This document shows positions 21,887-33,823 of a DNA stretch of 33,823 bases, in pieces; the first letter of the stretch is position 1; every line of letters starts with the position of its first letter. This stretch comes from an uncultured Bacteroidales bacterium (GTDB taxonomy: Bacteria > Bacteroidota > Bacteroidia > Bacteroidales > F082): contig CAMYXV010000011.1 in assembly GCA_947303055.1 (NCBI GenBank), forward strand, positions 1 to 33,823, written 5' to 3'. The notes under the pieces were generated by a model. It was not told the origin of the DNA. It made no database searches and saw nothing but the letters and a program-made list of their open reading frames with translations. The position numbers were made by a program, and so were the translations under genes.

Positions 21887-21918
21887 TTTGTATAATTGAA
21901 TAATTCTTGTTATTTTTG
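21887..21918 (+). promoter_or_regulatory. Complete Bacteroidetes promoter (-33 and -7) for the ATPase/regulator operon
   Basis: TTTG (21887-21890), a 20-nt spacer and TATTTTTG (21911-21918) match the consensus exactly, ending 19 nt before the ATG at 21938. It is divergent from the promoter at 21809-21840. Confidence 0.78.
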
Positions 21919-21937
21919 CAGCCTAAATTGTGCAAAA

Positions 21938-23053
21938 ATGAGAAATCCGTTCCTGACATACGGCTATAATGGGCCTGAGTATTTTTGTGACAGAGAGGAA
22001 GAGACCAAGCGTTTGACATCATTGTTGGTGAATGGCAACCATGTTGCCTTGATGTCACCAAGAAGAATGGGAAAGACCGGACTGATACGTCATTGCTTTG
22101 CCCAACAAGAGCTCAAGGATTATTATCTATTTGTAGTCGACATCTATGCCACAAAATCTCTTGCCGAATTGATTTATGAATTGGGCCGTTCCATTCTTAC
22201 GGTACTAAAATCGAAAGAGCGGAAAGCATGGGAGCGTTTTGTGCGTATAGCAGGCTCTTTACGAACGGGTATTTCACTTGATACTTTTGGGCAACCGAGT
22301 TGGAATCTGGAATTGGGTGATATCCAAACGCCGAAAACTTCGCTTGAGGAGATATTTCAATATCTAAATTCGGCAGACAAACCTTGCATAGTGGCTATTG
22401 ATGAGTTCCAGACAATTATGGATTATCCAGAACAAAACGTAGAGGCTCTTTTGCGAACCTATATCCAAGACTGCAATAATGCATGGTTCGTCTTCTCTGG
22501 CTCCAAGCGCCATATGATGGGCGAGATGTTTTCGTCACCTGCCAGACCTTTCTACCAAAGCGCATCCACCATGTCGCTCAAGGCAATACCACTTGACTCC
22601 TATTCCAAGTTTATCACCAATCATTTCGAGCAGGGTGGATTGCAAATTGTCCCCGAGGCCATCCAGTATATCTACGAGAAATTCGAGGGCACCACATGGT
22701 ATATCCAGAAAATATGTAATGAGCTTTATGCGATGGCTGAACCTAACAAGCCTTGTACCATCAAGGAAGTTGAGATGGCTATCAACCAAGCTATTGACGA
22801 GAAAGACGACACCTATCAGGATCTGCTGGCACGACTTTCAGCAAGGCAAAAGGCCCTGCTTATAGCATTGGCGCATTCGGGAAAGAACGTCCAACCCACA
22901 AGCGGAGAGTTCATTAAAAAGTATCATCTCACGTCAGCTAGTTCAGTCCAAAGAAGCCTGAATGCCTTGCAGGAAAAAGACATCGTTACAAACAGCGAAG
23001 GGAGATATTTTATCTATGATTATTTCCTTTATTATTGGCTGAATAAAAAATAG
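21938..23053 (+). CDS. AAA/STAND-type P-loop ATPase (ATPase_2-like)
   Basis: The 371-residue protein starts MRNPFLTYGYNGPEYFCDREEE, typical of the archaeal-type ATPase_2 (PF01637) group. Walker A is SPRRMGKTG (40-48) and Walker B is IVAIDEF (151-157); a sensor-like FSGSKRHMM segment follows. The last 80 residues look like a winged helix (SSVQRSLNALQEKDIVTN), so the protein may bind DNA or a protein partner. Members are often found in mobile or accessory regions and have mostly unknown roles. I start at the ATG after the promoter; a longer frame from 21896 begins upstream of the probable transcript start. The gene ends 13 nt before regulator A and shares its operon. Confidence 0.85.
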   Translation: MRNPFLTYGYNGPEYFCDREEETKRLTSLLVNGNHVALMSPRRMGKTGLIRHCFAQQELKDYYLFVVDIYATKSLAELIYELGRSILTVLKSKERKAWERFVRIAGSLRTGISLDTFGQPSWNLELGDIQTPKTSLEEIFQYLNSADKPCIVAIDEFQTIMDYPEQNVEALLRTYIQDCNNAWFVFSGSKRHMMGEMFSSPARPFYQSASTMSLKAIPLDSYSKFITNHFEQGGLQIVPEAIQYIYEKFEGTTWYIQKICNELYAMAEPNKPCTIKEVEMAINQAIDEKDDTYQDLLARLSARQKALLIALAHSGKNVQPTSGEFIKKYHLTSASSVQRSLNALQEKDIVTNSEGRYFIYDYFLYYWLNKK

Positions 23054-23066
23054 GAAACTGCGTGGC

Positions 23067-24911
23067 ATGAAACGAGTTATGCACATACTGAACTATTTTG
23101 CGGTTCTGACGATAATGGTGGCTTGCTCCCAACCAACTAAAGTTGAAGCCCCTGAACCTTGTCGAAGCGTCGCAGGGCCGACCCAAGAGTTGGCAGCCAT
23201 TGACACCCTTATGTGGCGGCAGCCGGATAGTGCCTTTGCGATGCTTCAGGAGTTTGCTTCAAGTGCGGCAGCAGATAGTCTGGATGAGTTTAACGGGCAT
23301 TACTGCCAGGTGCTGATTTCGGAGCTGCTGTATAAGAATTATTATAGACAGAGTAACCGAAAGGATCTGCTGAAGGCGGTGGGGTATTTTGATTCCATCG
23401 ATGACGGGTTTTTGGCGGCACGGGCGCATTATATTAATGGTGTGGGGTATGCTGAAAAGGACAGCGTGGTTGAGGCGTGTGGGGAATACCTCTGTGCCTT
23501 GCGGACGATGGAGAGCCATTATCCCGAGAACGAACTGGTGGGCACGAAGGCACGTTTCATGGTTTACACGTACAACCGCCTTGTGGATTTGTTTTCCAGT
23601 CAATATATGCAGGAGCCTGCCATCGTCTGTGGCAAAAAAGCCCTTGTTTTCAATAATATAGAACCAGTTTCTCCTTTCAACCGTTCCAATTTGTTGTATT
23701 ATATAGGGAGACAGTATGACAAGTTGAGCCTATATGATAGTGCAGCATATTATTTCGATGAGGCACTGAAACAATTGCCCGATACGAACAATTTGGTTTT
23801 CAGGGATTTGATTTCAGCCAAGGCTTTGCTGTTTTATAATAAGGGCAAAGGGTTAGAGCCTTCGGTGAATGGTTTGAGGCGTGTAGCGGTTCAAACCACG
23901 GATGAAAAAGAGAAATTGAATCGCTATCTGACTATTGGCTGTATTTATAGTGAAGAGGTACAATTCGATTCAGCGTTGGTTTATTTAACGCCTGTGTTTG
24001 AGGATATGGAGGATGCTGCAAGACAAAAGATTGCGGCGCGGTATCTGTACGAGATATTCCAAAATCAGGGAGACACAGTGAAAGCCGCCCAGTTTTCGAT
24101 GTACATTACGGGAAACACCACTTCGGAAGGGGAAAGCAACAAACAAGTATCGCAGCTCAACGAGCTGTTTCAACAGCATCTGCAATGGGAGCAGGAACGA
24201 GCCGATGCCGAAAGGCAGGGGAAAGTCCGTGTCCAAAGAAACAGGATGATAGTGGCAACAGGCATCCTTGCGGTGTTGGCCGCTCTTACGGCTTGGCTGC
24301 TCCACAGGCGCAAGATGAAAGAGCAACGTGAAGAAGCCAACCAGCAGATAGAGGTTGAGCGTGAAGCACACCGGTTGGAGAGCCAAAAATTGGAAGCCGA
24401 AAGGGAAGCCCATCGTTTGGAGAAAGCGTCGATGTCGGGTCGATTGAAAAAGAGCAACCAGGAAGTGAGGGAATTGAAGGACCAAATCAAACGGCAAGAG
24501 GAGGTGAACGCGAAGCCCCAACAGGCTGAATCGTTCGCCGATGAACCCATCTGCCGCCTCATCTTGGAGCAAGTGCATGAAGGGCAGTTCAAGGCGCAGA
24601 TGGACTGCAAACTTTATAAGGACGCCGCCTTAAGCAAGGAACAGGTGACGGCGTTGCGCGATGCCGCCGACCGCCATTTCAATCTGTTCACCGTCAGGTT
24701 AGCCAAAGCCTATCCCAACCTCACCAAGAACGACCTCGACTATTGCTGCCTCTATCTGCTTGGCCTTTCTGACGCCGACATCTCTGCCCTGATGCAGCGG
24801 GCTTACACCACCGTGAACGACCGAGGCCGCAAAATGAAAGCCATTTTCGGTGCTGAAGAGCCTCTTTCGGTCACTCTCCGAGGCTTCGCGGAGGAATTCA
24901 CATCTAATTGA
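23067..24911 (+). CDS. Membrane-spanning TPR/LuxR-like HTH regulator A
   Basis: The 614-residue protein is a one-component transmembrane regulator. It has a lipobox-like N-terminus (TIMVAC, Cys20), a helical TPR-like region (about 45-350), one transmembrane helix (394-413), a coiled coil of REAHRLE heptads (416-482) and a C-terminal domain (490-614). YPNLTKNDLDYCCLYLLGLS followed by DADISALM and TTVNDRGRKMKAIFG (549-594) matches the LuxR-like HTH of Bacteroidetes TPR regulators. The TPR part should be periplasmic and the HTH cytoplasmic. It lies 13 nt after the ATPase gene. Just downstream is a tandem 10-mer and a promoter for the surface protein at 25018, which I infer it controls. A mosaic paralogue starts at 31101. 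Confidence 0.85.
   Translation: MKRVMHILNYFAVLTIMVACSQPTKVEAPEPCRSVAGPTQELAAIDTLMWRQPDSAFAMLQEFASSAAADSLDEFNGHYCQVLISELLYKNYYRQSNRKDLLKAVGYFDSIDDGFLAARAHYINGVGYAEKDSVVEACGEYLCALRTMESHYPENELVGTKARFMVYTYNRLVDLFSSQYMQEPAIVCGKKALVFNNIEPVSPFNRSNLLYYIGRQYDKLSLYDSAAYYFDEALKQLPDTNNLVFRDLISAKALLFYNKGKGLEPSVNGLRRVAVQTTDEKEKLNRYLTIGCIYSEEVQFDSALVYLTPVFEDMEDAARQKIAARYLYEIFQNQGDTVKAAQFSMYITGNTTSEGESNKQVSQLNELFQQHLQWEQERADAERQGKVRVQRNRMIVATGILAVLAALTAWLLHRRKMKEQREEANQQIEVEREAHRLESQKLEAEREAHRLEKASMSGRLKKSNQEVRELKDQIKRQEEVNAKPQQAESFADEPICRLILEQVHEGQFKAQMDCKLYKDAALSKEQVTALRDAADRHFNLFTVRLAKAYPNLTKNDLDYCCLYLLGLSDADISALMQRAYTTVNDRGRKMKAIFGAEEPLSVTLRGFAEEFTSN
23220..23450 (+). repeat. Recombining repeat block 1 (pairs with 31236-31466)
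   Basis: These 231 nt differ from 31236-31466 at only one position that I can see, including synonymous sites. The sequence on the right then falls abruptly to low identity, which indicates recent gene conversion between regulators A and B. Confidence 0.85.
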
Positions 24912-24954
24912 TTATCGGTACGATAGCGAAAAACCCGTACAAACCCGTACATGG
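24210..24954 (+). repeat. Recombining repeat block 2 (pairs with 32226-32970)
   Basis: These 745 nt match 32226-32970 without indels and with few substitutions. They cover the transmembrane, coiled-coil and HTH part of the regulator and continue past the stop codon into the operator. Confidence 0.85.
24931..24950 (+). promoter_or_regulatory. Tandem 10-bp operator candidate (AAACCCGTAC x2), copy A
   Basis: Two exact head-to-tail copies of AAACCCGTAC lie 10 nt upstream of the -33 element of the T9SS gene promoter. A 10-bp period puts both on the same DNA face, as an activator dimer would need. The same arrangement recurs at 32947. Confidence 0.65.
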
Positions 24955-24959
24955 TTTTG

Positions 24960-24991
24960 CTTGCCATGCGCTGGGGCTTGGTGTAGTTTTG
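24960..24991 (+). promoter_or_regulatory. Promoter for the T9SS beta-propeller gene
   Basis: CTTG (24960-24963), a 20-nt spacer and TAGTTTTG (24984-24991), ending 26 nt before the ATG at 25018. Conserved in spacing with the promoter at 32976. Confidence 0.7.
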
Positions 24992-25017
24992 CCGAAAAAT
25001 TCTAAAAGCTAACGAAT

Positions 25018-26487
25018 ATGAAAACGACAAGATTTTACACCCTGCTTGTGCTCCTGCTGATGGCGGGAGGGGTGACGATGCAAGCACAAACAGTAGATGA
25101 CTTTTGGATGGGAATTGACCCGCCAGCGACAGGTGTTTACTCGCTCATAGAGGATTTCGACGGGAACATTATTGTAGGCGCAACGGGCGTGTACAGTTCT
25201 TCCGACGGTGGAGCAACTTGGAGCCTCATCGGATTGGAAAACAGCGGAATACTGCGCCTATATGAGCATACGGACGGCACTTTGCTGGCTGGAACAAATT
25301 ATGGCGGACATCCTTTGCAAAAAAGAGAAGCCGGCAGCACCGAATGGAAGGCACTGCCCGTTCCTACGATTGCCAATGGCGTTTCAATAGGTGTCACACC
25401 TGACAATTCTTTGCTTTTGGGCACATGGGAAGGCATCTACAAATCAACGGACTGGGATTCGACCTGGACCAATGTCTATGTGGACCATAGTGGGGTTTGT
25501 GAGGTGACAGGGCTGCTAAAACTTAACAACGGTACAATGTTGGCTACAGTTCTTGACCATATCGGCATGGGTATGGGCGGTGTGTTCAAATCAACCGACA
25601 ATGGAGAAACATGGAGTAATATCGGCTTGTCCGACAAATTCCCGTTTTCTCTGGCAAAAAACTCACAAGATGAAATCTATGTGGGTTGCCTTGTCCTTTA
25701 TGATCCGGACAATCCTCAACGCGGTTTCTACAAGTCAAGTGATTACGGGGAAACATGGGAAGAGTTTTTGCCGCATCAGTGCGTTCAGTCGATAACTGTT
25801 GACAATAACGATGTGATTTATGTCAATTTGTATTGTGATGCGTGGGGCAATCCTTTTGGTATTTATCGTTGGGAAAATGGTGATGAATGGTTGTACGGGT
25901 TAGCCGCTGGTATGCCAGACAGGAGAATTGAAAAACAGTTTCTTTCCAGGGATGGCTATCTGTATGCCTTTGGCCAATACGACAATCAAATCTACCGCAG
26001 CCGCAAGTCGGTGTATGAGGAGTTTGAAATAGATGTTGTTGCTTGTCCCGAAAACGGTGGCACGGTTGTAGGTTCAGGGATCTATAATTTTGGTGAGTTT
26101 GCCCATCTTTCTGCTTCAGCAAATGCAAACTACCAGTTTGTCGGCTGGACTAACCAGGACGGCGATACCATTTCAACAGAACAAGAATGTGTTCACATGA
26201 TAGCAAGAGGCGGACAGCTAACGGCGAATTTTGTCAGCATTGACGCTGTGGATGAGACGGAAGGGAAAGCCTTTACACTGTGGCCAAACCCTGCTTCCCA
26301 AACTGTTTACATTGACGGCGTTGAAGTTGATGAGGTGCAGGTTTATAATACGCTTGGGCAGGTGGTGAAGACTATGCGAGGCACGAATGAAATAACTGTG
26401 GCGGAGTTGCCGCAGGGCGTTTATTTGGTGCGGATTGCGGATGCAGAAGGAAAAGTGCTTACGGCTAAGGTGGCGGTGAGTAGATAG
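25018..26487 (+). CDS. T9SS-secreted Asp-box beta-propeller protein with InlB-type repeat
   Basis: The 489-residue protein has a signal peptide (1-24, ending MQAQ). Its beta-propeller region (about 35-330) carries four Asp-box (BNR) motifs: SSDGGATW (61-68), STDWDSTW (143-150), STDNGETW (192-199) and SSDYGETW (240-247). A single InlB-type repeat (about 335-405, with ENGGTVVGSG) and a type A T9SS sorting domain (417-489, from FTLWPNPASQTVYI) follow. Asp-box propellers occur in sialidases and in non-enzymatic binding proteins; sialidase catalytic residues are not evident, so I make no enzymatic claim. It lies 106 nt after regulator A and its operator, and is followed by repeat leader A and the outer-membrane gene at 26559. 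Confidence 0.88.
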   Translation: MKTTRFYTLLVLLLMAGGVTMQAQTVDDFWMGIDPPATGVYSLIEDFDGNIIVGATGVYSSSDGGATWSLIGLENSGILRLYEHTDGTLLAGTNYGGHPLQKREAGSTEWKALPVPTIANGVSIGVTPDNSLLLGTWEGIYKSTDWDSTWTNVYVDHSGVCEVTGLLKLNNGTMLATVLDHIGMGMGGVFKSTDNGETWSNIGLSDKFPFSLAKNSQDEIYVGCLVLYDPDNPQRGFYKSSDYGETWEEFLPHQCVQSITVDNNDVIYVNLYCDAWGNPFGIYRWENGDEWLYGLAAGMPDRRIEKQFLSRDGYLYAFGQYDNQIYRSRKSVYEEFEIDVVACPENGGTVVGSGIYNFGEFAHLSASANANYQFVGWTNQDGDTISTEQECVHMIARGGQLTANFVSIDAVDETEGKAFTLWPNPASQTVYIDGVEVDEVQVYNTLGQVVKTMRGTNEITVAELPQGVYLVRIADAEGKVLTAKVAVSR

Positions 26488-26503
26488 GCTTTTTCGTTAT
26501 TTG

Positions 26504-26559
26504 TACTTACGTGCTAACGTACTTACGAAGTGGGACTTATAGGACAGATAAGACTGATA
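26504..26559 (+). repeat. Leader repeat A: three 8-mers then three 9-mers
   Basis: TACTTACG, TGCTAACG and TACTTACG (26504-26527) are followed, after 5 nt, by GGACTTATA, GGACAGATA and AGACTGATA (26533-26559), directly before the outer-membrane protein start. The tract is preceded by TTTTTCGTTAT. Related copies are at 29010 and 29270. Confidence 0.8.
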
Positions 26560-28913
26560 TGAATATGAGATCAACAAGGATTACAATCTTGCTTGCACTC
26601 CTGATGATGGCGAGAGGGGTGACGATGCAAGCGCAAAACATCAGCGGAAAGGTCGTTGATGAAACCAACCAATCTGTTCCATTTGCGAATGTAGTGCAAA
26701 TGAGCCAGGACTCGGCCTTTTTAAGCGGCTGTGTCACTGATGAAAATGGGGCTTTTCAAATGGGAAAGGCTCAAAACGCGGCCTTGCTGAAGGTATCCTT
26801 TATCGGCTACAAGGACAAGTGGCTTCCGCTTTCGGGAACGCAGACCAGTTTGGGCACCATCCAACTTGACTTTGATGCCGTCAGCCTCAACGAGGTGACC
26901 GTCAGCGCAGGGTTGCCTGATGTTTATATTAAAGGTGACGCGCAAGTGACCACGGTCGAGAACAGCATCCTTGCCGAGGTGGGTGCCGCTGATGATGTTT
27001 TGGGCAAGATTCCGGGCATCAACAAGAGTCAAGGTAAACTAGAGGTTTTCGGCAAAGGAGAGCCCTTGATTTATATCAATGGGCGGCAGGTCCGCGACCG
27101 TAGTGAACTGGAGCAACTCGACGCCAAGGATATTCAGCGCGTGGAACTGGTAACCAACCCAGGGGCACGATATGATGCCACGGTGGGAGCAGTGGTGCGC
27201 ATTGTCACCAAGAAAGACCCCAATGAGGGCTTGGGTGTAGATGTGCGCTCATCGGTTTATCAGTCGGCGGACAACACCGACTTGCGTGACATCGTGAGTC
27301 TCAACTATCGCAAGAAAGGTTGGCAATTGTTGGCCACCGTCGATTATAGGGATGTGAAAACATTGACACATGCCGATTTCATTCAAGAAAACAGATTGGA
27401 AGATGATTGGCTGTTGCAAAACAACATGACGGAAGACATCAGGAATGCACGGGTCTCCAGCGTGTTTGAGGCCAACTATTCCTTTGGCTCCGAAAACATC
27501 ATAGGTGTACGTTACAGTCCAACTTTCTGGGCGATGATGAACGACTCCTTGCACCTTAATAGCACCGTTGAGATGAACGGGGCTTATTACGACCAATGGG
27601 AAAGCCGCCAACAGTTGCGGTATGACTATGACATAAGTCACCGTGTCAATGCCTTCTATCTCGGCAAATTGGGAAACACATCCATCGACTTCAACGCCGA
27701 CTATCTCAACAACGGCCAGACCATTTATAACAACTGCATTGAGTACAGCAGTGAATGGGATGACCGCATCATCCAATCGAAAAACCCAGTCAAGAACAAT
27801 CTTCTTGCAGGAAAACTGACATTTGCCACGCCATTATGGGGAGGTGAAATCACGTATGGAAGTCAGGCCTCGTTCACCTCTCGCCGCGATGACTATATCA
27901 GTCTTTCGGAGTTTACCGAGACATCGTTAATCAGAATCCAAGACCGTAACCTTGCCGCTTTTGTGGAATACAGCCGTACGGTTCCCTTCAGCGAAACTGT
28001 TATAGGCTCGTTTGCCATAGGCTGCCGTTACGAACACGCCGCCTATAATTATTACGAGCAGGATCTTCTTGTTGATGACCAAAGCAAAAGATTCAACAAC
28101 ATCTTTCCATCAGCCTCTTTCAGCATCAAGACCAATGAAATACAACTGATGGCCAACTATTCTGCCAAAACGCATCGTCCTTCGTATTATCATCTGCGTA
28201 ATTCGGTGGAATACGCTAACCGCTTTCTGTTGCAAACCGGAAACCCGTATTTGGAACCAAGCATAACTCACGATATTTTGCTGTTGGCCAACTGGAGGTT
28301 TTTGAGTTTTACCGCTGATTATCAGCATAACATCAATGTCATTATGGGAGAATGGATGGAACCATCGGAAAGCGACCCAAGAATCATCATCAATAGGCCT
28401 GTCAACTACGATAAGATGCCAACATTGTATTTATCGTTGACGGCTTCCCCGAAGATTGGGATTTGGAATCCTCGATGGGTTGTTGAGTTGAGCAAGCAAT
28501 GGTTCTCTCTTGAGAATCAAGACAATGCCATTGATTTTGGGAAGCCTTTGTTCCGTGCCAGATGGAACAATATGGTTTCTTTTCCCCATGGGTGGTATTT
28601 GGATGCAGACTTTTCCTTTTCGGGGAAAGGATATTATTCAGGAATCTATTACTGCAACAGAAATGTGTGGATTTGTGATTTGGCAGTCAGGAAGTCATTT
28701 CTTGAAGGCAATCTAAACCTGACGCTTGGTGTTTCAGACCTCTTCAATCAGGCTGTCAATAGCATCAATGTATATTGGCCTACTGTTAGTTTTGAGAAAT
28801 ATGCCAAATACGATTCACGCGAAATCTACCTGACCGTGCGCTACCGCCTGAAGGCCAAGACAAGCAAGTATCGTGGAAGTTTGGCGGGAGAGGAAGAAAG
28901 ACAAAGGTTGTGA
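26559..28913 (+). CDS. TonB-receptor-like outer-membrane protein with carboxypeptidase-regulatory domain (paralogue A)
   Basis: The product is 784 residues from the ATG at 26559 (MNMRSTRI...; a second ATG at 26565 is equally possible). Signal peptide ends TMQAQ. A CarboxypepD_reg domain (about 27-115, with SGKVVDETNQSVPFANV) precedes a plug-like domain (about 120-220: VTTVENSILAEVGAADDVLG, YINGRQVRDR, RVELVTNPGARYDATVG). A large beta-barrel fills the rest, as in the OMP_b-brl_3 (PF14905) receptors. No recognisable TonB box or ligand motif is seen. The N-terminal 220 residues are close to identical with the gene at 33088. No SusD partner is adjacent. The leader repeat A lies between the T9SS gene and its start. 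Longer in-frame readings from 26511 would include that leader. Confidence 0.88.
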   Translation: MNMRSTRITILLALLMMARGVTMQAQNISGKVVDETNQSVPFANVVQMSQDSAFLSGCVTDENGAFQMGKAQNAALLKVSFIGYKDKWLPLSGTQTSLGTIQLDFDAVSLNEVTVSAGLPDVYIKGDAQVTTVENSILAEVGAADDVLGKIPGINKSQGKLEVFGKGEPLIYINGRQVRDRSELEQLDAKDIQRVELVTNPGARYDATVGAVVRIVTKKDPNEGLGVDVRSSVYQSADNTDLRDIVSLNYRKKGWQLLATVDYRDVKTLTHADFIQENRLEDDWLLQNNMTEDIRNARVSSVFEANYSFGSENIIGVRYSPTFWAMMNDSLHLNSTVEMNGAYYDQWESRQQLRYDYDISHRVNAFYLGKLGNTSIDFNADYLNNGQTIYNNCIEYSSEWDDRIIQSKNPVKNNLLAGKLTFATPLWGGEITYGSQASFTSRRDDYISLSEFTETSLIRIQDRNLAAFVEYSRTVPFSETVIGSFAIGCRYEHAAYNYYEQDLLVDDQSKRFNNIFPSASFSIKTNEIQLMANYSAKTHRPSYYHLRNSVEYANRFLLQTGNPYLEPSITHDILLLANWRFLSFTADYQHNINVIMGEWMEPSESDPRIIINRPVNYDKMPTLYLSLTASPKIGIWNPRWVVELSKQWFSLENQDNAIDFGKPLFRARWNNMVSFPHGWYLDADFSFSGKGYYSGIYYCNRNVWICDLAVRKSFLEGNLNLTLGVSDLFNQAVNSINVYWPTVSFEKYAKYDSREIYLTVRYRLKAKTSKYRGSLAGEEERQRL

Positions 28914-29009
28914 GGAATCTGCTAAATATAATAAGTCATCGAAAGCCTTGGCCGCTCTATCGGCGACAAGGGGTGGTTTGAGGCTTTCTTTGGCTTTTTT
29001 CGGTATGCG

Positions 29010-29058
29010 TGTTATCGTGCTAACGACGGTGGGACTAATAGGACAGATAAGACTAATA
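29010..29058 (+). repeat. Leader repeat B: two 8-mers then three 9-mers
   Basis: TGTTATCG and TGCTAACG (29010-29025) are followed by GGACTAATA, GGACAGATA and AGACTAATA (29032-29058). It precedes the small lipoprotein start at 29064 with the same spacing as copy A before its gene. Confidence 0.75.
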
Positions 29059-29063
29059 GTAAT

Positions 29064-29242
29064 ATGAAGACAACAAGGATATTCGCCCTGATGGCGGTTT
29101 TTTGGCTGGATGCCGGGAAGGAAGAGACAAGGAATTGCCGCAAATGCCTGCTAGTGTTGACACCTCGGAATTCGATGAGGCTTATTATGAACGGATGCGG
29201 GTGTTTGAGAGGTTGTGTCCGGATGTGGAGCTGGATAAGTGA
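29064..29242 (+). pseudogene. Small lipoprotein gene broken by a 1-bp deletion in a T tract
   Basis: The ATG at 29064 begins MKTTRIFALMAVF in one frame. From about 29103 the neighbouring frame reads LAGCREGRDKELPQMPASVD and ends ...RMRVFERLCPDVELDK with a TGA at 29240-29242. The break falls in TTTTTT (29098-29103). With seven T the frame would be intact: a 59-residue lipoprotein with lipobox FLAGC. The shared-frame reading through the deletion would instead be 81 residues with no recognisable domain. Either this is a real frameshift, a phase-variable tract or a sequencing error. It follows leader repeat B and lies between surface genes. I do not recognise the mature protein. Confidence 0.6.
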
Positions 29243-29269
29243 AGGGGGATTGGATTTTTTCGTTATGTG

Positions 29270-29293
29270 TGCTTACGTGCTAACGTGCTTACG
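29270..29293 (+). repeat. Leader repeat C: three tandem 8-mers
   Basis: TGCTTACG, TGCTAACG and TGCTTACG occupy 29270-29293, preceded by TTTTTTCGTTATG as in copy A. The 9-mer part is missing and GAAACC-containing coding sequence follows at 29302. Confidence 0.8.
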
Positions 29294-29301
29294 AAGGGGC
29301 T

Positions 29302-29538
29302 ATGAGTGAAACCAAGGATTCTGAATTATTCATTTATCCCAATCCGGCAAAGGAAAAGGTGACGATAGAAGGTATTGAGGCTTCCGAAGTGCAGGTCTAC
29401 AATGTCCTCGGGCAGTTGGTGAAGACCGTACGCGATGCGAATGAAATCAGTGTGGCTGGTTTGGCGGAAGGGGTTTATTTGGTGAGGATTAGTGATAAGG
29501 AAGGAAGAATCTTTATGGAGAAGGTGATGGTGAGGTGA
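29302..29538 (+). pseudogene. Stranded T9SS type A sorting domain (78 residues)
   Basis: The frame encodes only a T9SS C-terminal sorting domain: LFIYPNPAKEKVTIEGIEA, VQVYNVLGQLVKTV and GVYLVRISDKEGR, ending KVMVR. It resembles the end of the protein at 25018. There is no signal peptide and no passenger domain, so it cannot be exported as such and is most likely the remnant of a larger T9SS substrate gene, the rest of which was lost by recombination at leader repeat C. The start is arbitrary. The gene could also be a donor module for recombination. Confidence 0.7.
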
Positions 29539-29546
29539 CTCCCGCG

Positions 29547-29586
29547 GCCTTCGGCCACCCCTTCTTAGAGTGGGAAGGGCGGCTGG
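29547..29586. other. Imperfect GC-rich hairpin after the stranded sorting domain
   Basis: CCCTTC and GAAGGG (with neighbouring GGCC/GGC bases) can form an imperfect stem of about 6-9 bp around TTAGAGTG. There is no T tract, so it is a weak terminator candidate or a fragment of a dispersed repeat. Confidence 0.3.
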
Positions 29587-29664
29587 GGATGCGCCTAAAT
29601 GACAGAAAGCTAATTAGAAACGATTCTAAATTACGATGCTTTATTAAAAATTTTGATGCAACCT

Positions 29665-29695
29665 ATTGGCAGTAATAAAAATGTTCGTAATTTTG
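29665..29695 (+). promoter_or_regulatory. Promoter for a candidate short RNA
   Basis: ATTG (29665-29668), a 19-nt spacer and TAATTTTG (29688-29695). No coding frame starts on the plus strand after it, and a terminator follows 38 nt downstream. Confidence 0.6.
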
Positions 29696-29701
29696 CAGCC
29701 G

Positions 29702-29765
29702 AGTTCATCTCTCATTTGAGAGAAGGAAATCGAAAAACGCGTAACCTAGAAGTTGCGCGTTTTTT
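29702..29765 (+). ncRNA. Candidate short RNA of about 64 nt
   Basis: A transcript starting about 7 nt after the -7 element would have a hairpin TCTCTC-ATTT-GAGAGA (29708-29723), a short A-rich linker and the terminator at 29733-29765. It contains no start codon followed by a usable frame that I could find. It lies between the convergent sorting-domain fragment and the BECR-like gene, with its 3' end 4 nt from the stop of the latter. No known RNA family is recognised. Confidence 0.45.
29733..29765. terminator. Bidirectional 13-bp intrinsic terminator
   Basis: AAAAACGCGTAAC (29733-29745) pairs with GTTGCGCGTTTTT (29752-29764), with one G-U pair and loop CTAGAA. T tracts are present on both strands, so it can end the short RNA on the plus strand and the DUF3800/BECR operon on the minus strand. 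Confidence 0.8.
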
Positions 29766-29768
29766 GCT

Positions 29769-30275
29769 TTACATTAGAGTACTCATCCTTCGCTTATACT
29801 TCTTGTCCATTTTGTTTCTTGCTGCGTCTTTTCCCTCCATGTAATATGCCGTCAACATATAATACTCATCTTTGTTGCGCAATGGTTCAAGAACAATCAC
29901 ATATTGTTCGTCCACATCGTAGATGTATGTCCTTATGCCTTGGGGTTCCTGAATAGAGAATACCTTCATGTTGTCTTTCTTCGATTCCTCAATGTGAAAC
30001 TTTATCCAATGAAGACGTCTTGAACGTTGCATGTCGAACTCTCTTTTGTTGATGCTCTTATCGGTTATCATGGTAGTGAGGTGACGGAAGAAACGCTCCA
30101 TGGTGTCCTCTCCATCAGCGGTAGTGGGATTGATTCTCTTCGTCCTGAATGCGAAATTAGGATTTTCGGCTATATCGCGATTGAAGATGCGCTTTAGGGA
30201 TTCCGTCCTTTGGATTTCCGTATAGGCCACCAAATCGAGCAGCTCATTGTAAACTTTAATCAGATTGTGTGGCAT
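29769..30275 (-). CDS. Candidate BECR-type nuclease (PBECR-like), second gene of a DUF3800 cassette
   Basis: The 168-residue protein has no signal peptide. An N-terminal helical region (about 1-75) precedes a segment FDMQRSRRLHWIKFHIEE (80-97), a strand pair and YVIVLEPLRNKDEYYMLTAYY (125-145), then a very basic tail. The D-x-x-R-x-x-R-x-x-W pattern followed by a viv-strand and LTAYY is how I remember phage-associated BECR-fold ribonucleases (barnase/EndoU/colicin-RelE-like) looking; this is recognition by eye and could be wrong. If right, it would cut RNA and act as a toxin or phage-defence effector. The ATG lies 1 nt after the stop of the DUF3800 gene, so the two are translationally coupled. 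Confidence 0.6.
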   Translation of the reverse strand: MPHNLIKVYNELLDLVAYTEIQRTESLKRIFNRDIAENPNFAFRTKRINPTTADGEDTMERFFRHLTTMITDKSINKREFDMQRSRRLHWIKFHIEESKKDNMKVFSIQEPQGIRTYIYDVDEQYVIVLEPLRNKDEYYMLTAYYMEGKDAARNKMDKKYKRRMSTLM

Positions 30276-30276
30276 G

Positions 30277-30951
30277 TCACTTCAGTTCTATAAAAAAGAG
30301 GTTCAACTTATTGGAATAATTGGTCTTGCCAAGGTCAGGTAGTTGGGCGTGCTTGCTTATTTTTTCGATGATTTGGACTTTTGCGGGATTTGCCTTTGCC
30401 TCGTCGTTCACGTTATAGGAGATGGCACCCATCAGAAAATCGGCAAGCTGCATTAGAAGGCTCTCGTCGGAGCGGATGTTTTGGACATTGCGAAAGACAC
30501 CGAACTTTACATTAAGGATTTCCTTCAGTCTTCTCACCTTCAATGCACTCAGTGTGTCCTTGATATCGAGATAGACATTGTAATGGCAGAGTGTATCGAT
30601 GTTGTAATTCAACAACTGATAGTACATCTTATAGTAGAAATCATCGAATGAGGTATTGAAATCGTCGCACTTGATCTTTGACTTTTCAATTCCAATGGCG
30701 CGGAAGCGGAGATCTGTATCGAAGAAATAATCTACGAGGTCGAGGTAGAAACGGAGTTTTGACATCGACACGTTGGCCCATTTTATTTCAGCGTAGAAGT
30801 TATGGCTTCGCTTAAGTTCTTTGATGCGCCGACAATGCCGTTTGACTTGAGGGTATGCACTACTGACCGAGCCAAGGAACATGTATTTCTTGTGGTCGTG
30901 TTCCAGATGGCAACTTTCGTCGCAATAGATATTGAATGTCTTGCTTTCCAT
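30277..30951 (-). CDS. DUF3800 domain protein
   Basis: The 224-residue protein fits DUF3800 (PF12686): YCDES with the acidic pair D11/E12 near the start, MFLGSV (24-29), AEIKW (54-58), YLDIKD (127-132) and DESLLMQLADFLMGAISYN (162-180). The spaced acidic residues suggest a metal-dependent RNase-H-like active site, which is inference; the family function is unknown. DUF3800 genes are common in accessory regions and near defence genes. Here it is the first gene of a two-gene minus-strand operon between the two regulator copies, with a promoter at 30978 and a terminator at 29733. Its AT-rich base use differs from neighbouring metabolic genes by eye, consistent with acquisition. Confidence 0.8.
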   Translation of the reverse strand: MESKTFNIYCDESCHLEHDHKKYMFLGSVSSAYPQVKRHCRRIKELKRSHNFYAEIKWANVSMSKLRFYLDLVDYFFDTDLRFRAIGIEKSKIKCDDFNTSFDDFYYKMYYQLLNYNIDTLCHYNVYLDIKDTLSALKVRRLKEILNVKFGVFRNVQNIRSDESLLMQLADFLMGAISYNVNDEAKANPAKVQIIEKISKHAQLPDLGKTNYSNKLNLFFIELK

Positions 30952-30977
30952 AACTGATGGTTATTTTTTACTGTCTG

Positions 30978-30985
30978 CAAATTTA
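30978..30985 (-). promoter_or_regulatory. -7 promoter element for the DUF3800 cassette
   Basis: On the minus strand TAAATTTG is an exact TAnnTTTG, 26 nt before the ATG at 30951. Confidence 0.6.
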
Positions 30986-31062
30986 GTTGTTTTTCGTAAA
31001 ACAGCATAATAGGGTGGAAAAATAGATTTAAGCAATAAGACTTGAATTGTATTGAATAGATT

Positions 31063-31096
31063 TTTGATTGAGTTTGATGGATTTTAAGTAGTTTTG
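31063..31096 (+). promoter_or_regulatory. Promoter for regulator B, very close to its start codon
   Basis: TTTG (31063-31066) and TAGTTTTG (31089-31096) are 22 nt apart. A TTG at 31068-31070 gives 18 nt. The -7 box ends only 4 nt before the GTG start, implying a leaderless or nearly leaderless transcript. Confidence 0.5.
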
Positions 31097-31100
31097 CAGC

Positions 31101-32927
31101 GTGAAACGTTGGTTTTACATAGGAATCCTGTTGTTGGCGTTAACGGTAGCCTGCGACTATCCTACTAAGGTCGTTGAATCTATTGAAACGCCGTCGTCTC
31201 CTGTATTGGCGGAGATTGACAGCCTGATGTGGCAGCAGCCGGATAGTGCTTTTGCGATGCTTCAGGAGTTTGCTTCAAGTGCGGCAGCAGATAGTCTGGA
31301 TGAGTTTAACGGGCATTACTGCCAGGTGCTGATTTCGGAGCTGCTGTATAAGAATTATTATAGACAGAGTAACCGAAAGGATCTGCTGAAGGCGGTGGGG
31401 TATTTTGATTCCATCGATGACGGGTTTTTGGCGGCACGGGCGCATTATATTAATGGTGTGGGGTATTATGAGCGCGACAGCCTTATTGAGGCCTGCTGGG
31501 AATACCTCAATGCCTTACGGATGATGAAAGTACATTTTGAGGAGAAGGTTTTGGTGGGACACAAGGCACGGTTTATGACTTTGACCTATAACCGCCTTGG
31601 GGATTTGTTTTCCGCACAATTCATGCAGGAGCCTGCCATCTATTGCTGTAAGAAAAGCTTGGATTATGATAGAATTGCCCAGGCTTCGCCAGACAAGATT
31701 GCCAACACACTCCTTCAATTAGGAAAGCAGTTTGGTAAATTGAAAGAATATGATAGTGCAGCATATTATTTCGATGAGGCACTGAAACAATTGCCCGATA
31801 CGAACAATTTGATTTTCAGGGACTTGATTTCGGCCAGGGCTTTTCTGTATTATCAAATGGGTAAAGGGGTTGAGCCTTCGGTGAATGATCTGAGGCGTAT
31901 GGCAATTCAAACCACAGATGAAACAGAGAAATTGAATCGCTATTTGACTATTGGCAGTATTTATAGTGAGGAGGTACAATATGATTCAGCGTTAGTTTAT
32001 TTAACGCCTGTGTTTGAGAATATGGAGGATGCTGCCAGACAAAGGATTGCGGCGCGATATCTTTACGAGATATTCCAAAATCAGGGAGACACATTGAAAG
32101 CCGCCCAGTTTTCGATGTATATTGCGGGAAACACCGTATCGGAAGGGGAAAGCAATGCACAGGTCTCGCAACTTAACGAGTTGTTTCAGCAGCATCTACA
32201 ATGGGAACAGGAACGGGCCGATGCTGAAAGGCAGGGGAAAGTCCGTGTCCAAAGAAACAGGATGATCGTGGCAACAGGCATCCTTGCGGTGTTGGCCGCT
32301 CTTACGGCTTGGCTGCTCCACAGGCGCAAGATGAAAGAGCAACATGAAAAAGCCAACCAGCAGATAGAGGTTGAGCGTGAAGCGCACCGGTTGGAAAGCC
32401 AAAAATTGGAAGCCGAAAGGGAAGCGCACCGTTTGGAGAAAGCGTCGATGTCGGGGCGGTTGAAAAAGAGCAACCAGGAGGTGAGGGAGCTGAAGGACCA
32501 AATCAAACGGCAGGAGGAGGTGAACGCGAAGCCCCAACAGGCTGAATCGTTCACCGATGAGCCTATCTGCCGCCTCATCATGGAACGGGTGCATGAAGGA
32601 CAGTTCAAGGCGCAGATGGACTGCAAGCTTTATCAAGACGCCGCCTTAAGCAAGGAACAGGTGATGGCGTTGCGCGATGCCGCCGACCGCCATTTCAATC
32701 TGTTCACCGTCAGGTTAGCCAAAGCCTATCCCAACCTCACCAAGAACGACCTCGACTATTGCTGCCTCTATCTGCTTGGCCTTTCTGACGCCGACATCTC
32801 TGCCCTGATGCAGCGGGCTTACACCACCGTGAACGACCGAGGCCGCAAAATGAAAGCCATTTTCGGTGCTGAAGAGCCTCTTTCGGTCACTCTCCGAGGC
32901 TTCGCGGAGGAATTCACATCTAATTGA
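31101..32927 (+). CDS. Membrane-spanning TPR/LuxR-like HTH regulator B (mosaic paralogue of A)
   Basis: This 608-residue protein has the layout of regulator A: lipobox-like ALTVAC (Cys18), TPR-like sensor (about 40-345), transmembrane helix (388-407), coiled coil (410-476) and LuxR-like HTH (about 543-588). It starts at GTG; the following KRWFYIGILLLALTVAC requires this start. Residues about 44-121 and everything after about 375 are nearly identical to A, while residues about 122-216 are clearly different, so the two probably sense different partners but bind similar DNA. The operator and promoter at 32947-33007 lead to the outer-membrane gene at 33088, its likely target. The HTH and operator are inside one long conversion tract. 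Confidence 0.85.
   Translation: MKRWFYIGILLLALTVACDYPTKVVESIETPSSPVLAEIDSLMWQQPDSAFAMLQEFASSAAADSLDEFNGHYCQVLISELLYKNYYRQSNRKDLLKAVGYFDSIDDGFLAARAHYINGVGYYERDSLIEACWEYLNALRMMKVHFEEKVLVGHKARFMTLTYNRLGDLFSAQFMQEPAIYCCKKSLDYDRIAQASPDKIANTLLQLGKQFGKLKEYDSAAYYFDEALKQLPDTNNLIFRDLISARAFLYYQMGKGVEPSVNDLRRMAIQTTDETEKLNRYLTIGSIYSEEVQYDSALVYLTPVFENMEDAARQRIAARYLYEIFQNQGDTLKAAQFSMYIAGNTVSEGESNAQVSQLNELFQQHLQWEQERADAERQGKVRVQRNRMIVATGILAVLAALTAWLLHRRKMKEQHEKANQQIEVEREAHRLESQKLEAEREAHRLEKASMSGRLKKSNQEVRELKDQIKRQEEVNAKPQQAESFTDEPICRLIMERVHEGQFKAQMDCKLYQDAALSKEQVMALRDAADRHFNLFTVRLAKAYPNLTKNDLDYCCLYLLGLSDADISALMQRAYTTVNDRGRKMKAIFGAEEPLSVTLRGFAEEFTSN
31236..31466 (+). repeat. Recombining repeat block 1 (pairs with 23220-23450)
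   Basis: 231 nt in regulator B nearly identical to regulator A; see the pair for the boundaries. Confidence 0.85.
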
Positions 32928-32970
32928 TTATCGGTACGATAGCGAAAAACCCGTACAAACCCGTACATGG
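32226..32970 (+). repeat. Recombining repeat block 2 (pairs with 24210-24954)
   Basis: 745 nt covering the membrane, coiled-coil and HTH part of regulator B plus the operator, collinear with the block in A. Confidence 0.85.
32947..32966 (+). promoter_or_regulatory. Tandem 10-bp operator candidate (AAACCCGTAC x2), copy B
   Basis: Same tandem repeat as copy A, again ending 10 nt before the -33 element of the downstream promoter. Confidence 0.65.
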
Positions 32971-32975
32971 ATATT

Positions 32976-33007
32976 CTTGCCATGCATGGGGGCTCGGTGT
33001 AGTTTTG
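32976..33007 (+). promoter_or_regulatory. Promoter for the outer-membrane protein at 33088
   Basis: CTTG (32976-32979), a 20-nt spacer and TAGTTTTG (33000-33007). The transcript would have a leader of about 75 nt before the ATG at 33088, containing a tiny frame at 33065-33091 that overlaps the start. Confidence 0.7.
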
Positions 33008-33087
33008 CCGAAAAATTGTTAAAGCAAACAGTAACTTTTTCAGCGTAAGTCCGTATAACAGAAAATGAATTTAAACACAATAGCATT

Positions 33088-33823
33088 ATGAAAAGATTTA
33101 TTACTTTCACCTGCTGCATGACTCTTGTTTTGGGCATACAAGCGCAGAACATCAGCGGAAAGGTCGTTGATGAAACCAACCAATCCATTCCCTACGCCAA
33201 TGTAGTGCAGATGAGCCAGGACTCGGCTTTTTTAAACGGCTGTGTCACAGATGAAAACGGAGCCTTCCAAATGGGAAAGGCGCAAAATGCGGCCTTGCTG
33301 AAGGTGTCCTTCATTGGCTACAAGGATAAATGGCTACCTCTTTCAGGAAAGCAATCCAATTTGGGCACCATTCAACTTGAACTTGATGCCGTCAGCCTTA
33401 ACGAAGTGACGGTCAGCGCGGGGCTTCCCGATGTTTACATTAAAGGTGACGCGCAAGTGACCACGGTCGAGAACAGCATCCTCGCCGATGTGGGTGCTGC
33501 TGACGATGTTTTGGGCAAGATTCCAGGCATCGTCAAGGACGACGACAAACTGACGGTGTTCGGCAAGGGTGAGCCGCTGGTTTACATCAACGGGCGACAG
33601 GTGCGTGACTTCAGCGAATTGGAGCAACTCAACGCCAAGGACATACAGCGCGTGGAGTTGGTCACCAACCCAGGGGCGCGGTACGATGCCACGGTCGGGG
33701 CGGTGGTGCGTATCGTCACCAAGAAAAACCCCAATGAGGGCTTGGGCGTGGATGTGCGCTCATCGGTTTATCAATCGGCGGCCAACACCGACCTGCGCGA
33801 CATCGTAAGCCTCAACTATCGCA
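33088..33823 (+). CDS. TonB-receptor-like outer-membrane protein (paralogue B), N-terminal part, cut by window edge
   Basis: The open frame continues past the right edge with 245 residues visible. It starts MKRFITFTCCMTLVLGIQAQ (signal peptide), followed by a CarboxypepD_reg domain (about 21-108) and a plug-like domain (about 115-215, with YINGRQVRDFSELEQL and VELVTNPGARYDATVG). It closely matches the N-terminal part of the protein at 26559 from NISGKVVDETNQS onward, but its signal peptide is different. It is directly controlled by the promoter at 32976 and by the operator at 32947, after regulator B. Confidence 0.88.
   Translation, partial: MKRFITFTCCMTLVLGIQAQNISGKVVDETNQSIPYANVVQMSQDSAFLNGCVTDENGAFQMGKAQNAALLKVSFIGYKDKWLPLSGKQSNLGTIQLELDAVSLNEVTVSAGLPDVYIKGDAQVTTVENSILADVGAADDVLGKIPGIVKDDDKLTVFGKGEPLVYINGRQVRDFSELEQLNAKDIQRVELVTNPGARYDATVGAVVRIVTKKNPNEGLGVDVRSSVYQSAANTDLRDIVSLNYR

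Follow-up and report, generated by a model that had tools for sequence, protein, structure and literature searches.

Tandem 10-bp repeats as predicted operators of a membrane-anchored regulator family in gut Bacteroidales

Regulators A and B of an uncultured Bacteroidales bacterium, together with the tandem repeats and surface genes that follow them, are one case of a genus-wide system of herbivore-gut Bacteroidales. Both lie in a contig stretch of 33,823 nucleotides (hereafter the window). Computational comparison of relatives reveals linkage between the regulators and a 10-bp tandem repeat, a recurrent geometry of this repeat, covariation of its half-sites with one helix of the regulator, near-restriction of the site to the genus, and reassortment of the genes around it.

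The best explanation for these patterns is that A and B act as membrane-anchored transcription regulators of the one-component type. Each would run from a lipoprotein-type N-terminus through a TPR-like periplasmic domain, a single TM helix and a coiled coil to a DNA-binding domain in the cytoplasm, and two copies of this last domain would sit side by side on both 10-bp half-sites, one helical turn apart. If the promoter consensus is right, then the operator is at about -44 to -63, 10 nt upstream of a -33-like TTG, and the bound regulators most likely would activate the adjoining secreted or outer-membrane gene. The half-site of each regulator subtype would be set largely by an 11-residue helix, and the HTH-operator block would serve as a conserved hinge around which recombination swaps sensors and surface genes. 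We consider this account as a whole very probable; binding in vivo, activation, membrane orientation and periplasmic sensing are the parts of it that we infer.

Results and discussion

Two modules with the same predicted operator

An earlier note on this DNA described A and B as having the same layout, each followed by two copies of AAACCCGTAC, a promoter and a surface gene, and this arrangement is found in the window (Table 1); the promoters are of Bacteroidetes type. The proteins are 84% identical and their C-terminal domains are nearly so. Each has a single hydrophobic segment, and the TPR region is a weak match in both, with TPR_1 (Pfam) above the cut-off in B only. Kinase, receiver and AraC domains are not among the Pfam and NCBIfam matches of A and B (NCBIfam was searched with whole regulators only), and GerE, the LuxR-type HTH, gave no Pfam match in either protein up to E 0.1. 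For the C-terminal domain, no convincing Pfam family was found with the 24 domains of alignment A2 up to E 1, GerE being absent from the ten families listed for them, and profile searching found no PDB relative (best E 0.12). The fold of this domain in A and B and the position of its helix are predictions from sequence.

TABLE 1. Features of the two regulator modules in the window
Feature	Position	Strand	Content or basis
Regulator A, 614 aa	23067..24911	+	Cys-ending signal peptide, TPR-like region, TM, coiled coil, C-terminal DNA-binding domain (predicted)
Regulator B, 608 aa, GTG start	31101..32927	+	Layout as in A
Signal peptide of A, lipoprotein type, Cys20 last	23067..23126	+	Sequence; pattern across family
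TM segment of A, MIVATGILAVLAALTAWLL	24246..24302	+	Sequence; hydrophobic segment in 68/71 relatives
TM segment of B	32262..32318	+	Sequence; A/B comparison; relatives
C-terminal DNA-binding domain of A (predicted), 150 aa	24459..24908	+	Row 1 of alignment A2
Predicted recognition helix of A, TTVNDRGRKMK	24807..24839	+	Covariation; helicity from sequence
Predicted recognition helix of B, residues 575-585	32823..32855	+	Same sequence as helix of A
Operator of module A (predicted), AAACCCGTAC x2	24931..24950	+	Repeat search; geometry in relatives
Operator of module B (predicted), AAACCCGTAC x2	32947..32966	+	Repeat search; geometry in relatives
Promoter-like element, module A	24961..24991	+	TTG 24961-24963, N20, TAGTTTTG 24984-24991
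Promoter-like element, module B	32977..33007	+	TTG 32977-32979, N20, TAGTTTTG 33000-33007
Target of A, T9SS surface protein, BNR/propeller-like repeats	25018..26487	+	Pfam, NCBIfam
OMP_b-brl_3/TonB-type outer-membrane protein, 3' in module A	26511..28913	+	ORF from GTG
Target of B, CarbopepD/TonB-type OMP	33088..33823	+	Continues beyond window end
T9SS sorting-domain remnant, spacer debris	29302..29535	+	T9SS tail match

The membrane architecture recurs in the family. In 68 of 71 nonredundant full-length relatives, a hydrophobic segment lies at a distance of 160-330 aa from the end, and its C-terminal flank is the more positive one in 40 of these 68, which is a weak positive-inside signal. A Cys-ending signal peptide was recognized by pattern in 36/71 and by eye in 17; another 18 are truncated at the locus edge. 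The missing N-termini of these 18 were considered as frameshift or phase variation, a reading that was rejected as an artefact of truncated loci.

There are exactly four copies of AAACCCGTAC in the window, which form the two tandem pairs. With up to one mismatch, six matches are found where 1.42 are expected, and none of 100 shuffles reaches six. The DNA of A and B is 88-100% identical per 60-nt interval from about 24206 through the operator, so a shared operator within the window is expected from duplication or gene conversion alone. Diverged relatives rather than the A/B pair are the source of real evidence for the operator.

The gene at 25018 ends in a type A C-terminal sorting domain (PF18962, 43.2 bits, cut-off 27; TIGR04183, 43.5 bits, cut-off 23). 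Its neighbor at 26511 carries OMP_b-brl_3 and probably starts downstream of the called GTG, at the signal peptide. The gene at 33088 matches CarbopepD_reg_2 at 53.1 bits and is the N-terminus of a TonB-type receptor that shares 91% identity with the gene at 26511 over 229 aa, with its barrel part beyond the window end; a counterpart in another locus (98% identical, 776 aa) was included among the targets scanned below. The spacer between the modules holds T9SS-tail debris, repeats of 36-52 nt and two genes matching candidate phage-defence models. The genome of the window is 58% complete, and the genus genomes are draft assemblies.

A tandem repeat accompanies the regulators of the genus

A search of genus genomes listed about 150 places, from which 60 regions and the search's own loci were taken, and a search of genome contigs yielded 134 relatives, of which 80 were kept; in those 80, the helix pattern led to an ORF 68 times. 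Loci from genus genomes and genome contigs overlap, as they come from the same assemblies, and duplicates were removed by sequence. By rule, a 10-bp tandem repeat lies 3' of 74 of 88 nonredundant regulators (66 adjacent, 8 distal, 11 with none, 3 in loci that are too short). After curation, the linkage that the earlier note had proposed to look for is present in 73 of 87 (66 adjacent, 7 distal, 11 none, 3 too short). Curation concerned L006, a chance AT-rich repeat scored as adjacent; L257:3969, scored as distal and thereby a double count, since it and L257:4177 belong to one broken regulator; and L151, scored as none because its operator was masked by the low-complexity filter. L088 was scored as none, and its copy L180, with the second half-site intact, is among the 27 further modules described below.

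The repeat typically ends 10 nt before a -33-like TTG. Among 69 nonredundant regions, a period-10 tandem repeat follows the regulator in 24 at a threshold of at least 9/10 (0.10 expected) and in 40 at a threshold of at least 8/10; in the same regions, periods 6-9 and 11-15 gave 0 or 1. The exact geometry (two units, 10 nt, TTG, AC ends) is present in 51/93 redundant regions; the modules counted were filtered for repeat similarity, an AC end and TTG 10 nt on, so that AC and TTG are conserved by selection. The gap from TTG to TAnnTTTG is mostly 20-21 nt.

Of 99 genus genomes, 41 contain matches to the operator pattern, 84 sites in all (reversed control, 0). For other Bacteroidales, matches were found in 2 of 291 genomes (control, 4). 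The site is nearly restricted to this genus. Of 78 distinct sites, 53 lie 3' of a regulator ORF and 6 behind a regulator that is truncated, frame-broken, separated by cargo or unscored; 12 are just 5' of a regulator start, and no regulator was found near the remaining 7. The C-terminal domain itself matched in 109 of 295 genomes of the order at E≤0.001. Outside the genus, only one genome, G101, was matched at E better than 1e-15 among the matches listed, and the rest are weak. This genome has the closest full-length relatives outside the genus, and one of the two cases inspected there carries a repeat of period 11, not 10. As a separate observation, period-11 repeats occur with 7 of 38 regulators of other families (shuffle mean, 0.38).

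In some loci a cargo gene stands between regulator and target. The operator is then found with the target promoter, 470-1611 nt away, in 19 of 23 rows; the sequence is too short in the other 4. This bears on the idea that the repeat is an RNA element acting as the 3' end of the regulator mRNA, an attenuator or a target leader, as its location directly 3' of the regulator stop codon could suggest. The repeat stays with the target when the regulator is separated, and it lies upstream of the predicted target promoter at a near-constant distance to TTG, which makes an RNA element extremely unlikely.

Placement also is informative about the direction of control. The regulator could bind the repeats and repress, or act chiefly on itself: One subfamily has the operator 73-89 nt before the regulator start, which accounts for the 12 such sites (three judged by N-terminal sequence only), and a regulator's own core is found upstream in 7 of 46 modules. 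However, the other 39 modules have no upstream copy, and the window has no operator copies beyond the two 3' pairs. The position of the operator upstream of the -33-like TTG, with no promoter overlap, fits an activator better than a repressor. Repression or autoregulation is judged to be unlikely, with activation of the adjoining gene preferred.

Operator half-sites covary with an 11-residue helix

The repeat sequence differs among regulators, and the core bases shift jointly in both half-sites. Among 49 modules, the half-sites agree at position 7 in 48 (permutation mean, 22.8) and at position 8 in 43 (17.5), values that are inflated by the pre-filter described above. Agreement at positions 1 and 4 is not above chance in these 49 modules (17 versus 20.2 and 21 versus 21.6), and a few operators have unequal half-sites.

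Distances between operator cores correlate with distances between helices (r=0.54) but not with those of the remaining domain (r=0.07); the partial r for core and helix is 0.55 (p=0.0005). The 10-nt spacer 3' of the operator also correlates with the helix when the rest of the domain is controlled (partial 0.25, p 0.0005), as does the promoter spacer slightly (partial 0.10, p 0.006). These spacer correlations are a sign of linkage. With both spacers as covariates, the core-helix value is still 0.55.

When the core was predicted from the 11-residue helix by using relatives <65% identical elsewhere, the prediction was right in a fraction of 0.69 (70 modules). Shuffled helices gave a mean of 0.18 (maximum 0.29), 300 random 11-column sets a mean of 0.25 (maximum 0.54), and other contiguous windows a maximum of 0.47. 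The column with the highest MI falls inside the helix for operator positions 5, 7 and 8 and outside it for positions 4 and 6; columns 572 and 519, also outside, rank second for other operator positions. The helix pattern led to another 27 distinct modules, and every one of them paired helix type and operator as before; 7 of them are known only behind a cargo gene, and many are close relatives. A one-residue rule in which D579 specifies GTAC was rejected: D579 occurs together with CGTAC in several types, whereas the two helix types RAVxDRNKK and NTVCDRTRK combine it with CCGCAC. The helix PTVSQRSRKIK occurs with two cores.

These data constitute strong computational evidence that the C-terminal domain binds the repeats, and they suggest that regulator-operator pairing may be readable almost like a code. 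Since helix and operator are only ∼100 bp apart, gene conversion can move both together; it hardly explains core prediction between domains <65% identical. A related possibility is that the repeat is no regulatory site and simply hitch-hikes, A and B being recent duplicates whose 3' end was copied along. The near-identity of A and B through the operator is what this would predict, as are the helix correlation of the 10-nt spacer and HTH blocks that are 93-98% identical across species despite sensors of only 51-62% identity. However, diverged paralogues hold the geometry with different half-sites whose two units are altered together at the core, the core follows the helix but shows no such link to the remaining domain, and the operator remains with the target promoter across a cargo gene. 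Hitch-hiking is very improbable on this evidence.

If half-sites are subtype specific as predicted, then a genome carrying several types of paralogue should keep them insulated from one another. Because the helix and operator of A are also those of B, these two are predicted to cross-regulate, with both reading the operators of 25018 and 33088. The two modules of the earlier note do share an operator, but by this prediction they would not be private.

Sensors and targets are reassorted around the HTH-operator block

Different loci combine the conserved HTH-operator block with different sensors and targets. One locus (L025) joins a B-like sensor to an A-type target, and in another (L044) the target of A is under a sensor of 62% identity. 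These cases bear out the proposal that recombination diversifies the family and speak against a fixed pairing of each sensor with its adjacent surface gene. Targets were assigned by taking the first ATG frame with a length of ≥60 aa within 330 nt, a procedure that may have made a few wrong assignments. Secreted or surface proteins, as had been anticipated, are frequent among the 71 targets: 32 have a T9SS tail, which is a lower bound since several target genes are truncated, 10 match DUF3244 and 8 match LRR_5.

The reassortment itself could mean that recombination acts on the tandem repeats, as crossover sites or as a piece of a mobile cassette, and in this way keeps the linkage. A 66-nt duplication with a cargo insertion in the C76 paralogue and cargo genes of the RhuM, AlbA_2 and Kinase-PolyVal types are compatible with this idea. 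But fixed promoter spacing and helix-operator covariation are unexpected for a crossover site, and the repeat sequence varies between subtypes. A role as recombination site has only a slight chance of being correct.

A sister class of regulators carries a LuxR-like HTH; its repeats are 54 or 66 bp apart in 7 of 14 cases, and a K/Q to G/A correspondence is seen in seven modules, two of which are close relatives. Because the same logic appears in this class, the principle may extend to Bacteroidota membrane regulators generally.

A broader reading is combinatorial wiring for surface display. In an expanded regulator family, HTH-operator blocks would be portable connectors, within which recombination joins varied TPR sensors to varied surface proteins; paralogous connectors would be kept orthogonal by the 11-residue code, A and B would converge on one connector type, and the regulators possibly would be anchored in both membranes by a lipidated N-terminus and an inner-membrane TM. 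We offer this reading tentatively, as somewhat doubtful.

Relationship to known systems

A description of this regulator-operator arrangement was not found in the open-access PMC literature searched. The closest known system is that of the SusR-like one-component regulators of Bacteroides (SusR BT3705, SusR2 BT3091), which are membrane anchored and have predicted direct-repeat motifs, some of them linked to the controlled genes; motif similarity tracks regulator similarity, and their C-terminal DNA-binding domain does not significantly resemble any other known TF (PMC3878776). SusR-like direct repeats are 67 or 77 bp apart, whereas those of the A/B class are 10 bp tandem repeats (PMC3878776). 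SusR-like targets are glycan-use systems, whereas targets here often are T9SS, DUF3244 or LRR proteins, and the sensor in the A/B class is TPR-like, with a Cys-ending signal peptide. The sister class, with its wider spacing, is nearer the SusR pattern.

HTCS regulators likewise are described as membrane anchored in Bacteroides with direct-repeat motifs, but with repeats averaging 21 bp apart (PMC3878776), and their kinase, receiver and AraC domains are those not found in A and B. The BT3442 family (NF053779) is a weak whole-protein match (A, 36 bits; B, 52.3 bits; cut-off 940 bits). BT3442 is a TPR-containing protein in a surface/pore-forming protein cluster, and the passages on it describe no operator (PMC2954219). 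A BT3442-type link was rejected: Of 247 genomes, 227 contain a match to the model at E≤0.001, but only one exceeds the cut-off, and no case of the 10-bp operator was established among its close members.

Dma proteins of Bacteroidota are described as regulatory, with domains that reach from the outer membrane to the cytosol. Their topology may be comparable to a lipidated N-terminus combined with a TM segment, but they work via a sigma factor, whereas the DNA-binding domain of A and B is predicted within the same chain. Operators of OmpR/PhoB proteins are tandem direct repeats whose head-to-tail units are spaced by about one helical turn and lie immediately upstream of the core promoter. This tandem-site arrangement is similar, but the protein family is different from that of A and B. 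Contacts reportedly have been inferred from TF-operator covariation in the MerR, LacI, GntR and IclR families (PMC5045206, PMC4052901, PMC4494728, PMC8222616). Those are other TF families, and the pairs here are mostly paralogues physically beside their operators.

Implications

A DNA-binding function, an operator and likely targets are proposed here for a large regulator family whose DNA-binding domain matched no family in the Pfam, NCBIfam and PDB-sequence searches. The dozens of natural regulator-operator pairs make the recognition code testable residue by residue, and natural cases are provided of sensor-target rewiring via a conserved connector. For gut Bacteroidales, the findings offer a concrete hypothesis for how secreted T9SS, DUF3244 and LRR proteins may be controlled.

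Organization of modules A and B

Regulators A and B are 84% identical. As the earlier note described, each is followed in the window by two copies of AAACCCGTAC, a promoter-like element and a surface gene, and this arrangement was confirmed. The element 3′ of each pair, TTG-N20-TAGTTTTG, fits the TAnnTTTG-type promoter, which is the Bacteroides consensus. Within the window the common operator proves little, because A/B DNA identity per 60-nt window is 88–100% from ∼24206 through the operator; beyond 24986, it is ≤47%.

Pfam yields only weak TPR matches for these proteins, with TPR_1 above its cut-off in B and not in A, and the NCBIfam match of both to the BT3442 family falls far under its cut-off. 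For the 150-aa C-terminal domain, no convincing family was found in Pfam and no relative in the PDB.

Features of the window and of compared loci
Feature	Position or loci	Remarks
Regulator A	23067-24911	
Regulator B	31101-32927	
Operator A	24931-24950	two head-to-tail copies of AAACCCGTAC, starting 19 nt past the A stop codon
Operator B	32947-32966	two head-to-tail copies of AAACCCGTAC, starting 19 nt past the B stop codon
Target A	25018	T9SS protein
Target B	33088	CarbopepD/TonB-type OMP; 91% identity over 229 aa to OMP at 26511
C25 peptidase	276-3695	Gingipain-type: propeptide, C25, C-terminal Ig-like, T9SS tail, five InlB-B-like repeats
AAA/STAND-like ATPase	21896-23053	directly 5′ of regulator A; weak matches to candidate defence models
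Gene pair between modules	29769-30951 (-)	PADLOC candidate defence pair PDC-M04B/PDC-M04A (8.5e-73, 7.4e-80); second gene carries DUF3800
Repeated intergenic units, 36–52 nt	26484-26581, 28990-29080, 29250-29299, 29302-29535	regions include a lone T9SS sorting-domain remnant
Duplication in L017 (contig C76)	6690-7257	66 nt, 95% identical; regulator tail and operator flanking a cargo ORF
Cargo genes between regulator and target	L136:5610-6380, L132:973-2400, L125:5552-6325, L127:5485-6297	
Sister-class repeats	L061, L072, L053, L073, L074, L089, L106	begin ≤20 nt past the stop codon
Period-11 repeats, other Bacteroidales families	L313, L328, L235, L246, L336, L339, L343	

The genome containing the window (2.18 Mb, 58% complete) holds more paralogues. 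At the equivalent place behind the regulator, a 68% paralogue on C76 has the variant repeat AAACCCGCAC/AAATCCGCAC, and a 52% paralogue on C29 has AAATCCGAAC twice. More distant paralogues on C32, C85, C5, C16, and C4 are without such a repeat. A scan of this genome for two copies of AAAYCCGNAC, allowing ≤2 mismatches, returned five sites, every one exact and every one behind an A/B-type regulator or its duplicated 3′ end; the reversed control returned one.

Linkage of regulator and operator across the genus

Regulator B is matched in all 99 genus genomes searched (E ≤ 0.001), and relatives occur in MAGs from rumen, abomasum, reticulum, and horse faeces as well as in Ca. Limimorpha equi and bacterium F082. 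Genus regions comprised the search's own loci and 60 of ∼150 listed places. Among 69 non-redundant downstream regions, 24 carry a period-10 tandem of at least 9/10 identity (0.10 expected) and 40 one of at least 8/10, while periods 6–9 and 11–15 gave 0 or 1 each. Two units with AC ends, 10 nt, and TTG are present in 51 of the 93 regions having enough sequence, and the gap from TTG to TAnnTTTG is mostly 20–21 nt.

By rule, the 88 non-redundant ORFs that encode a regulator with this domain divide into those with an adjacent operator (66), a distal one (8), none (11), or too little sequence (3). After removal of L006 (a chance repeat) and L257:3969 (a double count) and inclusion of L151 (a filter miss), the operator is present for 73 of 87; linkage in relatives was the check that the earlier note had put forward. 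Those lacking it include the visibly degenerate L088, L063, and L090 and the single-unit L193; the others have divergent or different C-termini. The predicted regulator–operator link is strongly supported by computation, and the A/B pattern is real and broader than first noted.

Matches to the pattern CCGNACNANNCCGNACN10TTG number 84 in the genus genomes, spread over 41 of the 99, against 0 for the reversed control in all. In a Bacteroidales set of 295 genomes, 4 belonging to the genus, the pattern was found in 2 of the 291 others, with 4 control matches. A regulator ORF precedes 53 of the 78 distinct sites examined, and 6 more also follow a regulator: L263, L266, L265, and L294, whose domains are truncated or frame-broken; L211, where the regulator (G054:C11) stands behind an AlbA_2-like cargo gene; and L259, assigned by eye. 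Another 12 start 73–89 nt before a regulator start codon (3 judged from the same N-terminal sequence). The remaining 7 have no regulator assigned; L279 and L298 are at contig ends, L297, L256, and L299 precede apparently orphan surface genes, and L260 and L307 complete the group. In one subfamily the operator lies on both sides of the regulator gene, ∼1.7–1.85 kb apart (L254, L274, L276, L278, L280, L281, L286, L293), which suggests autoregulation.

The predicted recognition helix tracks the operator core

Arranging the modules by operator groups the 11 residues that follow ALMQ[RK]xY (575–585 in B) into types. As exceptions, RAVxDRNKK and NTVCDRTRK carry D579 but go with CCGCAC.

Helix types and their operator cores
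Helix type	Operator core
TTV[NC]DRxRK, TAVCDRNRK, STVSDRSRK (L311)	..CGTAC
NTV[SC]ERxRKLK	CCGCAC
[APSN]TV[SC]E[RH]xRKI	CCATAC
NTVxER[NDS][SGT]K	CCGAAC
NTVFER	CCTAAC
NTVFHR	TCTAAC
PTVSHRARK	TTGATAC
PTVSQRSRK	TCACAC or TCATAC in second unit
YTVSERSRKLK	CCACAC

Among 49 non-redundant modules, the two half-sites agree at position 7 in 48 (permutation mean 22.8), at position 8 in 43 (17.5), and at position 5 in 40 (29.5); at positions 1 and 4, agreement is not above chance. Distances between operator cores follow distances between helices (r 0.54; partial r 0.55, p 0.0005, once the remainder of the domain is controlled for) but do not correlate with that remainder (r 0.07). Two imperfect controls, the 10-nt spacer behind the operator and the promoter spacer, gave partial correlations with the helix of 0.25 and 0.10, and the core–helix value stays at 0.55 with both spacers and 12 nt upstream added as covariates. 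Across 107 columns, residues 575, 582, and 579 (numbered as in B) have the highest mutual information with positions 7, 8, and 5, followed by 572 for positions 5 and 7 and by 519 for position 8; for positions 4 and 6, the top column lies outside the helix.

The best helix match among modules <65% identical elsewhere predicts the core in 0.69 of 70, compared with 0.18 for shuffled helices (max 0.29), 0.25 for 300 random 11-column sets (max 0.54), and ≤0.47 for other contiguous windows. In an earlier form of this prediction with 72 modules, the helix scored 0.67, all other domain positions together 0.33, and a random choice 0.18. In 27 further distinct modules (20 adjacent, 7 behind a cargo gene), the second half-site, if not both, matches the operator of the closest helix type, a weaker result than the distant-relative test because many of the 27 are close relatives.

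A weakly conserved block spans −40 to −7 from the first operator unit in 64 modules, with peaks at −29, −22, −18, −8, and −7. The 12 nt just upstream of the operator correlate at 0.48 with the rest of the domain versus 0.27 with the helix.

Reassortment, targets and cargo

Regulator B and L025 have sensors 98% and HTH domains 99% identical and unrelated targets, whereas A and L044 have sensors only 62% identical, HTH domains 93% identical, and targets identical across the 293 aa compared. For B and L062, HTH domains (95%) and targets (98%) were compared. These comparisons indicate that the HTH–operator block acts as a hinge and that the gene adjoining a regulator is no fixed partner. Diversification of the family by recombination, as the earlier note proposed, is supported by these sensor and target swaps (B/L025, A/L044).

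A T9SS tail is present in 32 of the 71 non-redundant target proteins; 10 match DUF3244, 8 LRR_5, and 2 OMP_b-brl_3, and most others start with a signal-peptide-like stretch, judged by eye. In modules where a cargo gene separates regulator and target, operator and promoter lie directly 5′ of the target, 470–1611 nt off, for 19 of the 23 rows; in the other four (L035, L040, L030, L157), the sequence is too short. Some of the 23 rows represent one module taken from both of two collections. Cargo types in four examples scanned are RhuM (also PADLOC PDC-S05), SLFN_AlbA_2, and Kinase-PolyVal. The module looks like a hotspot for insertion, in part of defence-like genes. The intergenic 36–52 nt units and the lone T9SS remnant in the window are debris of lost surface genes.

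Relatives outside the genus

Across the order, a domain search had hits in 109 of 295 genomes (E ≤ 0.001); among the matches listed, G101 alone gave strong ones outside the genus (1e-24 and others). Behind its regulator L313 lies a period-11 repeat of AAATTCCCGC, and behind its regulator L228 a weaker one. Period-11 tandems after the stop codon accompany 7 of 38 regulators from other Bacteroidales families (shuffle mean 0.38).

A sister class has similar TPR parts and a LuxR-like end (..ENTVxxYR..). Direct repeats of at least 9/10 identity, spaced 54 or 66 nt, follow 7 of 14 non-redundant members (shuffle mean 0.03, max 1), of which L061 and L072 are close relatives; the other 7, mostly with K, have no such repeat. 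In the first copies, NTVxKYR pairs with GTA (3) and NTVxQYR with ATA (4). This spacing resembles the 67/77-bp repeat spacing predicted for SusR-like proteins in passages of PMC3878776.

Topology and predicted roles

Of 71 non-redundant full-length regulators, 68 have a hydrophobic segment 160–330 aa before the C-terminal end. The C-side flank of this segment is more positive in just 40 of the 68, so orientation rests more on domain order than on charge. A lipoprotein-type Cys follows the signal peptide in 36 of the 71 by pattern and in 17 more by eye; 18 are cut at the locus edge. If the predicted lipidated N-terminus were targeted to the outer membrane, the protein would, speculatively, span from outer membrane to cytoplasm, as passages of PMC13088901 describe for Dma anti-sigma factors.

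Activation of the targets, cue sensing, and membrane topology are predictions for A/B-type regulators. The family can be classed among the membrane one-component regulators of Bacteroidota, as a variant whose operator geometry is unusual. Its distinctive traits are a predicted DNA-binding domain absent from the libraries that were searched, a recognition code that can be read, and the shuffling of sensors and targets.
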